This document shows, one piece after another, positions 10,833 to 52,710 of a stretch of DNA of 64,000 nt. The notes below the pieces were generated by a model. The model did no database searches. It saw nothing but the letters and a program-made list of their open reading frames with translations, and had not been told where the DNA came from. Origin of the DNA: Verrucomicrobiota bacterium JB023 (GTDB lineage: Bacteria; Verrucomicrobiota; Verrucomicrobiia; Verrucomicrobiales; Akkermansiaceae); assembly GCA_030673895.1 (NCBI GenBank), contig JAUTCR010000025.1, forward strand, positions 1 through 64,000, written 5' to 3'. Position numbers and translations under genes: made by a program. How positions within the stretch are numbered: position 1 is the stretch's first letter; the number at the start of each line of letters is the position of its first letter.

Positions 10833-10894
10833 TGTCTTGGAGGTCTATTTTTTCCGTCGGTGACCTTGCCATGTGCCAATCTCATCTCTCAAAA

Positions 10895-11275
10895 TCAACG
10901 GTCAGCAGCAGACCGCGAGACGAAATTTTGGAAGCCGCCATAGAGCATACGTTTGGAGTCAAAGGGCATTTGCTCCGGTTGGCTCATGCCTTCGATCCGG
11001 GGGTCTTTCATGACCTTGGCATTCACGATATCGCGGTGCTCACGCGACTCGTAGCTAATCCAGGCGAAGACAACAACTTCATCAGGGGCTACTGCTAGCG
11101 AGCCAGTAAAGGACGCGCCGCAGTCATCATTTTCAAGATCGTCACCAAGGCATTCCTGATAATCGAGGGCTCCGTATTCAATCCAGACCTCGCTGGCGAG
11201 TTCGGCCATTTCTTGATAGTCGTCCCAATTCTTTTTCGGAACGATGATCACAAATCCATCTGTGTAAGCTGACAT
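10895..11275 (-). CDS. DUF1428-family protein
   Basis: A 126-residue cytoplasmic protein with a dimeric alpha-beta-barrel-like fold expected for DUF1428. Family marks are YTDGFVIIVPKKNWDDYQEM at the start, ECLGDD, WISYESREHRDIVNAKVMKD and FDSKRMLYGGF. The function of the family is not established. It lies between YciI (gap 9 bp) and DoxX genes and is part of the operon controlled, by inference, by the ECF42 sigma factor. Confidence 0.92.
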   Translation of the reverse strand: MSAYTDGFVIIVPKKNWDDYQEMAELASEVWIEYGALDYQECLGDDLENDDCGASFTGSLAVAPDEVVVFAWISYESREHRDIVNAKVMKDPRIEGMSQPEQMPFDSKRMLYGGFQNFVSRSAADR

Positions 11276-49682: not shown

Positions 49683-50274
49683 TAATGCGACCAGTCAGCG
49701 GGTCCATGTCGATCTCGGTCCAGCTCTCATCCCGCTCAAGGCGGATCGAAATTGGCTCGCAAAGCCCGGTGGACTCAAAAGGCCAAGTGATGACAGGAGC
49801 CTTACTATCTTCTGGATAATACCAAGCGGTCACCTTCGCCCCCCAGCGTCTCACGAACAGCTTGAGATCATTGGGAGGACGATACTCACCGTATTCCTCG
49901 ATGTTCGAAGGAGTCATCAGGATCTCCCCCTCCATTTGCTCCTCAAGCCATTGCTCCTCCTCCAACGTGTTCAAGCCTACGCTCTCCAGAGTCGCGCCTC
50001 GCAGCACCACCCGGTCAGCCTCGAAAGACAGCCAGAAGGGCTTCTGGTGGAGCACTGACATGGCATGCCCGCGAGCAGCCAATGCCTCCAGCTCCACCGT
50101 GGCCTCCTGCAAGACAGGGCCAGCCCCGTCCGGCTTGAAGGAAACAAAGACCATCGTCAGCAGCAGCCCAATCAGGCCGATGGCGAACATGATCTCCAGC
50201 AGGGTGAACCCCGCTTTTCGCTTAGGTGCGTGGATCCTGACTGCTGATGTCGTCATCGGTGCCAAACTCCCCAT
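49654..50274 (-). CDS. gspH: Minor pseudopilin H
   Basis: A 206-residue prepilin. The cleavage site is KAG^FTLLEIMFAIGLIGLLL (about residues 21-39). After the helix the beta-rich domain has AAR/HAMSVLHQKPFWLSFEAD, which matches the GspH pattern. The Met at residue 7 (50256) is an alternative start nearer the leader. It overlaps gspG by up to 53 bp. Confidence 0.85.
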   Translation of the reverse strand: MGSLAPMTTSAVRIHAPKRKAGFTLLEIMFAIGLIGLLLTMVFVSFKPDGAGPVLQEATVELEALAARGHAMSVLHQKPFWLSFEADRVVLRGATLESVGLNTLEEEQWLEEQMEGEILMTPSNIEEYGEYRPPNDLKLFVRRWGAKVTAWYYPEDSKAPVITWPFESTGLCEPISIRLERDESWTEIDMDPLTGRINEERSEIYD

Positions 50275-50671
50275 CGGTGCCTGCGGAAATCACCTCGGGG
50301 CGGTTCTTATCCTGGCTACCTGGATACTTGTATTGAAATTCATTGCCCCAGGCGTCTTTCGGCACATTGTCATAAGCCTTCGTCCAGCGCCGGGGGATCG
50401 GCGCGGTGGAGGGCTTGTTCACGAGAGCATTAAGCCCTTGGGAATCAGAAGGATAATTTCCACCCAAACGACGGTATTCCATCAGCTTGGTCTCAATGCC
50501 TTGCACCATGGCCTCCGTCGTCGAAATGGCAGCACCTTCGCCTGACCTTCCTACCACGACTGCGGCCGCCCCCAGAATCAGGGCAATGATGCCCAAAACC
50601 GCGATCATCTCCAGCAACGAGAATCCCCGCGCGGTTCCAGGTAACGTCTTCCGTGTCTCGATTCCTTTCAT
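50222..50671 (-). CDS. gspG: Major pseudopilin G
   Basis: A 149-residue major pseudopilin. The cleavage site is ARG^FSLLEMIAVLGIIALIL (about residues 15-33). The C-terminal part has the GspG calcium-site pattern GNYPSDSQGLNALV, DAWGNEFQYKYPGSQ and SAGTDGEFGTDDDI. It is the first gene of the operon and matches the type II secretion major pilin. The operon reads G-H-I-J-K-L-M-x-D in one direction with overlaps or short gaps. Confidence 0.93.
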   Translation of the reverse strand: MKGIETRKTLPGTARGFSLLEMIAVLGIIALILGAAAVVVGRSGEGAAISTTEAMVQGIETKLMEYRRLGGNYPSDSQGLNALVNKPSTAPIPRRWTKAYDNVPKDAWGNEFQYKYPGSQDKNRPEVISAGTDGEFGTDDDISSQDPRT

Positions 50672-50996
50672 TGTCTTCTTCTTCGTTTTCGGCTCGCAGC
50701 GAGCTTACTGAGGAGGAAACGCGGAAAGAAAGAAAACTTGTCGGGAAAACTCGCCCAAATCTCTCCCGAGCCCGTCAGCAGGCTCTCCCGCTTTGATGTT
50801 CTAGTGCACTTACCCCATTCGGTCCACACCAACACCGCGAGGACCGCCTTCGCTGAAGCTAAATGGCCGAAATATGAAAAAACACAAGCACCTTACCGAT
50901 ACCAACATCGAAACCTCTAACAGTTAGTCTAATTCGTGACGCATCCGTTGACAACCCGACCAACATAATCAAATTACTACATCCCACGACAACGCG

Positions 50997-51116
50997 ATGC
51001 TTGAAACACTCCATGTTGAGCAAAATGATTTTGTCTTTGCCGTCATTGTGGCGAAGACAGCCTTTATCACGTGCCTTTGCTCTCTTCTTCTCTACCTGCG
51101 TAGGCAACGGAAGTAA
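50997..51116 (+). CDS. Candidate 39-residue single-helix membrane protein
   Basis: ATG 50997 to TAA 51114-51116 encodes 39 residues: MLETLHVEQNDF, one hydrophobic helix VFAVIVAKTAFITCLCSLLL, then YLRRQRK, a basic end that would keep the C-terminus in the cytoplasm. A TTGACA box lies 44 bp upstream. There is no clear Shine-Dalgarno, and no homologue known to me, so the gene is only a candidate. The layout (one helix, positive-inside end) is that of many real small membrane proteins. Confidence 0.4.
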   Translation: MLETLHVEQNDFVFAVIVAKTAFITCLCSLLLYLRRQRK

Positions 51117-51351
51117 AAATGCCTCCTGAACTGCTTGCCTAGGCTACAACCATTCCAGTCAGGTTAAGCACCGATAGGAGCCGTTTTTTTGATAACACGG
51201 CCTCGCTATTTCACCGACCCGCTGGCTGTCTCACATCTGAAACATCTCCTCCATTCCGGCCCCATCGACCGGTCCAGTCACCTTTCGAATAGACCGCCTC
51301 AGCGAGAATGGCAAAAAGCGCGTTCCGTCTTCGCTAGCAGCATGGTCGATT

Positions 51352-51388
51352 GACGAGAAGGAGAACGTCTCCCTCTCGTCGATTTTTT
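51352..51388 (+). terminator. Strong intrinsic terminator pointing plus
   Basis: GACGAGAAGGAGA (51352-51364), loop ACG, TCTCCCTCTCGTC (51368-51380; one mismatch) then GATTTTTT (to 51388). On the minus strand no T-run follows the stem, so it points plus. The genes on both sides of this gap, gspG and the 434-residue protein, are minus-strand, so it serves an unannotated plus transcript or acts only as a road-block. Confidence 0.75.
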
Positions 51389-51405
51389 AAACCAATGATG
51401 AAAAT

Positions 51406-52710
51406 TTATTCGCCCTCGCTGGAGCTGCCCAAGGCGGCTGCCCGATCGGCCTCTGGCAAGGAGTTTAACCATTGGTTGGCAGCCTCCTCGTCCTGGCCTT
51501 TCCAGGTCTCGTAGAGGCCTTCATAGTTGGATTGTCTTTGTGAGTCGTCCAAGACCTGACCATACCATTCCGCCGCTCTTTCCGGCTGGCTATTAAGGAG
51601 CTGTGACCCGGCCTGCTCGTAGACCGCATCGGTATGAAACTCGTCCCCCTGATTGCGCAACCAGTCCGAGGCTTGGGCTTCGTCGTTGCCAACCCATCGG
51701 GCGAAGGTTCCGGCAATTTCATCTCCCGCGTTCTCCTGACCTTGCAAGGTCTCGCTTTGCCACTCCAACGCGGCAGCCGGATCGTGGCGGCCCCAAGAGC
51801 TGCCGAGTTGTTCTTCCAGTTCAGCCCGGCGTTCCGCTGCTGGATTGAACTCGTCCAGCAGGGCAACGGCCTGCTCCGGATCTTGCCAGACCAAGCTTCG
51901 GACCATGGTGTCCTGTGCCTCGTGGAGCGTCTCCGTATTCTTTCCTTGCAGATAGGAGATTAGCTGGGCGCGCTTTTCTCCGTCAGACGCGTAGTTCTGG
52001 GCCAATTGTTCAATCACGGTCGATTGGGTGCTTTCGTCGAGACCCTCAATCTTCGCCATGGTGCCGTCAAAATCGGTGCGAGCCTTAACCGCATAATACA
52101 TGGCCTCGAATCGTTCCTTACCCATGCCAAAGCCACCCGCCAGCTTGTCGCCGTTCTCCTCGATCCAATTGTAGGCATCATCCGGGGCATTGCGCATCCA
52201 CCCCATCATCGCGCCCATGAGTCCGGACATCTTGAGCATCGGTTGCTCAATGCCCATCGCGACCTCGACGGCCGCAGGCCCATCCTTGGCAGCGAGACGA
52301 TTCAGCAGGATCATCCGAACCGCCATCATCTCTTGTCCCCCGCCCGCTTCCTCAAGCGACGCGAGAAGACCTTCGATCTCGTAAGCATCCAGATACTGGA
52401 CCATGTCCCAGATATTGAACATCGACTCGAAGTCCATCATCGCCATGGGAGAGCGTTTGAGCTCTTCAATCAGCTCTTCCAGTCCTCGCTCGGGATCGCG
52501 TGATAATTCGTAGCCTCGCGTATTGACGCCAGAGGATGTTGCCGTGAGTTCGGCTGACTGGCGGCGCTCCATCTCTGCCTTGAGCGCGGCCAGCTCCCGT
52601 TTCGCGGACTCTGCCGCTGCATCGTCAGCGCCGGAGCTGCCTGCAAAAAAACCGAGCATACCGGTGATCACCCCAAAGGCGATCATGATCCCCATTTCCT
52701 TACTTTTCAT
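51406..52710 (-). CDS. Membrane-anchored repeat protein of unknown function
   Basis: A 434-residue protein with an N-terminal membrane helix (about 7-26), a charged coiled coil (about 32-55) and helical repeats. In the C-terminal half four repeats of about 35-40 residues share the pattern W-x4-D/E-x-x-A-A-x-W: SSWGRHDPAAALEWQ, FARWVGNDEAQASDWL, LLNSQPERAAEWYGQ and ETWKGQDEEAANQWLNSLP. Such repeat proteins are numerous in Verrucomicrobiota genomes (known pattern, no function). It may work as a scaffold in the periplasm. It is 45 bp from the cobalamin adenosyltransferase gene upstream. Confidence 0.75.
   Translation of the reverse strand: MKSKEMGIMIAFGVITGMLGFFAGSSGADDAAAESAKRELAALKAEMERRQSAELTATSSGVNTRGYELSRDPERGLEELIEELKRSPMAMMDFESMFNIWDMVQYLDAYEIEGLLASLEEAGGGQEMMAVRMILLNRLAAKDGPAAVEVAMGIEQPMLKMSGLMGAMMGWMRNAPDDAYNWIEENGDKLAGGFGMGKERFEAMYYAVKARTDFDGTMAKIEGLDESTQSTVIEQLAQNYASDGEKRAQLISYLQGKNTETLHEAQDTMVRSLVWQDPEQAVALLDEFNPAAERRAELEEQLGSSWGRHDPAAALEWQSETLQGQENAGDEIAGTFARWVGNDEAQASDWLRNQGDEFHTDAVYEQAGSQLLNSQPERAAEWYGQVLDDSQRQSNYEGLYETWKGQDEEAANQWLNSLPEADRAAALGSSSEGE

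Follow-up and report, generated by a model that had tools for sequence, protein, structure and literature searches.

A plus-facing terminator-like hairpin between gspG and a tandem minus-strand gene of Verrucomicrobiota bacterium JB023 as a candidate 3'-end element

The gap at positions 50672-51405 of the 64,000-nucleotide stretch of DNA analyzed herein (the window) contains a strong hairpin followed by six T residues on the plus strand. The initial annotation had taken this gene-less terminator as direct evidence for a hidden transcript, a claim that fails since the same stem fits the 3' end of the neighboring minus-strand gene, and an ordinary gene-end element is the more likely interpretation than proof of a hidden gene. 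The likeliest reading, which we hold with moderate confidence, is that the element is the 3'-end hairpin of the minus-strand gene and is also able to stop plus-strand RNA. The confidence attached to this and the other readings reflects our judgement and was not computed.

Results

The gap separates two tandem genes, and, as the initial annotation had stated, only minus-strand genes border it. On one side lies gspG (50222-50671, minus), the first gene of a minus-strand pseudopilin cluster, which encodes the major pseudopilin of type II secretion (TIGR01710, 97.8 bits; Pfam T2SSG), and on the other side lies a gene for a 434-aa protein (51406-52710, minus) that was assigned to no Pfam family and has homologues in related genomes. 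The 434-aa protein also showed seven matches within its own genome, and several copies occur in many relatives. The source genome is of the Roseibacillus/Akkermansiaceae type, and among named relatives the best match to its gspG came from a Roseibacillus MAG. The gene order around the gap differed in the three genus mates compared, in which unrelated genes stand upstream of gspG; homologues of the 434-aa gene were located elsewhere. Conservation of the gap DNA against 38 relatives was at chance level only. An origin from a mobile element or repeat was rejected, as both the hairpin sequence and the gap were single-copy in the genome, and a known RNA family was also rejected, as the gap gave no match at the gathering score in Rfam 15.

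Read on the plus strand, the hairpin has the core GACGAGAAGGAGA-ACG-TCTCCCTCTCGTC (51352-51380), in which the arms at 51352-51364 and 51368-51380 form a 13-bp stem with one A-C mismatch. Wobble pairs lengthen this hairpin to 51348-51384, and the T6 run occupies 51383-51388, so that the plus-pointing stem with one mismatch and six T described in the initial annotation is indeed present. The element (51348-51388, plus) had an MFE of -22.2 kcal/mol and a z-score of -4.05, and among 2000 dinucleotide-shuffled copies of the gap, a hairpin with at least six T on either strand reached -18 kcal/mol or lower in 4 cases and -21 kcal/mol or lower in 1 case. As a hairpin this strong with such a T run is rare in the shuffled gap, it is not a product of chance. 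A stable stem-loop with a U tract directly after it is what characterizes an intrinsic terminator, and judging from the sequence the element could work as such in the plus direction. A strict bidirectional terminator with an A tract and a U tract was rejected, because on the plus strand the stem is not preceded by an A tract.

On the minus strand, the stem (51352-51380) is paired over all 13 bp, the A-C mismatch of the plus strand becoming one G-U pair (z = -4.32), and it begins 21-25 nt past the stop codon of gene 51406-52710, which is the usual stop distance in this genome and had been overlooked in the initial annotation. The plus fold including the wobble pairs was approximately as stable as the minus fold. 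The minus stem is preceded by A6 and followed by AATCGACCATGC in place of a U tract, and thus it is not a canonical terminator of the 434-aa gene; owing to the A6 ahead of it, the plus strand reads the stem followed by T6 and could therefore also stop plus transcripts. In comparison with known intrinsic and bidirectional terminators, the hairpin shares the GC-containing stem, the short loop, the T6 on the plus side and a location on the minus strand shortly behind a stop codon, whereas it differs in that its U tract is confined to the strand that carries no known gene and in that, on the strand of the minus gene, the A tract comes before the stem and no U tract comes after it. Based on the full minus pairing and the genome-typical stop distance, we regard the element as being mainly the probable 3'-end hairpin of the minus gene.

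This assignment was considered against a survey of approximately 1.1 Mb of sampled stretches of the same genome, for which genes were called with a simple home-made caller. U-tract hairpins of -18 kcal/mol or lower were found behind a same-strand gene (43), within genes (17) and, as orphans, behind an opposite-strand gene (7, the gap hairpin included), counts that depend on the home-made gene calls and comprise few orphan cases. Among the 43 strong same-strand terminators, 27 start 12-41 nt after the stop codon. In the four orphans of -18 kcal/mol or lower that lie in tandem gaps and lack an A tract, the T run and the stop codon of the faced gene were 7, 17, 17 and 18 nt apart, the distance for the gap hairpin being 17 nt; the orphan sample is small because the case in L111 lies in a tiny gap and that in L144 precedes a larger ordinary terminator. 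Furthermore, five hairpins of -20 kcal/mol or lower without a stem-adjacent U tract (the gap hairpin included) were found after tandem genes versus 0.1 expected from shuffles, and in two of the five the stem itself or the sequence immediately behind it is T-rich. The stop distances and the count of U-tract-less hairpins thus indicated that the gap hairpin is part of the minus gene's 3' end. Against this stand the missing U tract after the minus stem, the rarity of A6 before in-line terminators and the homologues of the 434-aa gene, at which no matching hairpin was found except for one bidirectional terminator-like hairpin in L028. Speaking for the assignment, A tracts have been reported in Zymomonas mobilis before in-line terminators for which a bidirectional function is not expected (PMC7566282), and in the present genome at least six A precede 2 of 40 in-line terminators (5%) versus 1% of background sites.

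The opposite end of the gap was found to hold a conserved minus-strand element. When the 109 bases upstream of gspG were aligned with four Roseibacillus-type loci (L022, L023, L024 and L069), 18 invariant columns fell within 50702-50742 (minus; GACAA-TTTT ... CGTTT ... TA), which makes this stretch the control region of gspG and not of a plus transcript; the element itself is probably the gspG promoter or a control site. In several Roseibacillus-type genomes it reads GACAACTTTT-ATTTC ... GCGTTTC ... TAGACT approximately 75 nt before the start codon, with a spacing that is not that of a plain sigma-70 promoter.

The 39-codon frame with one helix and a basic end that the initial annotation had named is located at 50997-51116 (plus), and its candidate product MLETLHVEQNDFVFAVIVAKTAFITCLCSLLLYLRRQRK was predicted by AlphaFold2 to form a single helix over residues 2-38, with a hydrophobic helix and a basic C-terminus. 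An ATG frame of at least 39 codons occurred in 93% of shuffled gaps and is thus trivial, whereas a frame as hydrophobic as this one occurred in approximately 1% of them; 4 such cases were found in 38 kb of real intergenic DNA. With an in-frame hexamer score of 1.9, the frame ranks at approximately the 5th percentile of real 39-codon segments, whose mean is 12.1 (sd 5.6), and it is outscored by 59% of antisense segments. The conservation check proposed for the frame turned out negative, as no homologue of the peptide was found in the 38 relatives or in 260 family genomes, in which the best non-self match (E = 0.028) lay inside long unrelated frames. Since the genus mates do not share the same gene order, this non-conservation is weak evidence against a species-specific gene. 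A phage origin of the peptide was rejected as it had no match among phages, and known protein families for the 39-mer or the other frames were rejected as only weak FtsW/RodA membrane-helix matches were obtained. In the sampled stretches, a 4-base Shine-Dalgarno match preceded 20% of genes (with starts from the simple caller) versus 18% of random positions; the genome thus has no general Shine-Dalgarno signal, and its absence before the 39-codon frame is uninformative.

As for a promoter, the TTGACA hexamer claimed as a promoter box does exist at 50948-50953 (plus), but a good -10 box is lacking, as the hexamers 16-18 nt downstream match TATAAT at 3 of 6 positions at best, and the consensus promoter scan did not list the site. 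The scan gave a sigma-70-like site matching 9 of 12 positions at 51001-51029 (plus), which lies inside the 39-codon frame, and it gave no minus promoter-like site in the gap downstream of the frame. The suggestion that 51117-51351 might hold a structured 3' part found a counterpart in a second fold at 51115-51190 (plus), which starts at the stop codon of the frame, ends in T7 (51184-51190) and has A5 pairing towards this T7. Its free energy on the plus strand was -24.4 kcal/mol (z = -2.85), with 1 of 200 shuffles as good, and the z-score on the minus strand was -0.45, so that the unusual stability is confined to plus; its significance is modest because the segment was chosen after inspection of the gap. 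Two T runs of at least six on one strand occurred in 16% of shuffles, and any run of seven A or seven T in 28%.

Discussion

All the features of the gap named in the initial annotation were confirmed to be present in the sequence, and their interpretation as a hidden transcript was partly supported. In the explanation that we favor, the gap would be ordinary intergenic DNA separating two tandem minus-strand transcription units. The minus mRNA of gene 51406-52710 would form the hairpin shortly past its stop codon, where it may mark or protect the 3' end of this mRNA, and the same hairpin may halt antisense plus-strand transcription before it enters the gene; the far end of the gap would serve gspG through its conserved control element.

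A plus-strand transcript, in the form of a small RNA or of a short mRNA that encodes a 39-residue membrane peptide, is possible but doubtful. Such a transcript would start within 50900-51040 and end at T7 (51190) or T6 (51388), and it would account for the T6 on the plus side of a hairpin rarely matched among shuffles, for the plus-only stability of the fold that begins at the stop codon of the frame, and for a hydrophobicity seldom reached in shuffled gaps; moreover, the sigma-70-like site at 51001-51029 would yield an RNA of approximately 150 nt up to T7. That site nevertheless lies within the frame, the TTGACA has no good -10 partner, T runs are not rare in the shuffled gap, the gap has no Rfam match, and the peptide combines a low coding score with the lack of homologues in the family genomes. 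Translation of the frame would give a peptide that spans the membrane once and has a basic end, akin to stress or type I toxin peptides.

In layout only, the region resembles the Fst/Ldr type I toxins, which it matches in having a short peptide with one hydrophobic helix and a charged C-terminus and in having structured RNA after the 39-codon frame. The Fst/Ldr signature includes a conserved Trp that separates the helix from the charged tail and is replaced by Val in Fst of pAD1, and the majority of members carry a P/D/S/TxxxG(C) motif in the helix (PMC7472228). In contrast, the 39-residue peptide contains neither Trp nor Gly, and none of its P, D, S or T residues is followed by a Cys at the fourth position; the motif is thus absent, and no homologue was found. 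Nor was an antitoxin RNA seen, the promoter scan having given no minus-strand site downstream of the frame from which such an antisense RNA might start. Similarly, the gap shares a terminator-like end and a possible promoter with intergenic small RNAs that have intrinsic terminators, and differs from them in its lack of an Rfam family and of conservation. A lineage-specific plus unit, in which a toxin- or stress-like membrane peptide or a small RNA is closed by the 51115-51190 fold together with the 51348-51388 terminator, is something that we consider unlikely.

We also considered that the hairpin might be a purely plus-facing insulator by the 3' end of the minus gene, with no plus gene and no role in the minus mRNA, whose job would be to stop spurious antisense transcription. 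An orphan hairpin at L060:11103-11137, likewise strong, shares this layout in that its T6 points to the 3' end of a short gene for a 67-residue hydrophobic protein (10872-11075) at 18 nt from the stop codon; very few such cases exist, and the sequence cannot separate an insulator from a 3'-end hairpin, so we judge this explanation quite improbable. Another strong hairpin of the same locus, at L060:10693-10723 (T5, -23.7 kcal/mol), belongs to a divergent gap of 624 bp, where it lies 142 nt upstream of a short plus gene, and is possibly a leader attenuator or the end of a hidden RNA.

To our knowledge, little mapping of small RNAs and small proteins exists for the phylum Verrucomicrobiota, and our literature search found no paper that describes type I toxins or end-mapped small RNAs of Verrucomicrobia. 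A terminator that faces the apparently wrong way should not be taken as proof of a hidden gene; in this genome such hairpins also sit at the 3' ends of the genes that they face. If a plus-strand RNA were found in the gap, it would be among the few small transcripts of this lineage with a mapped end.
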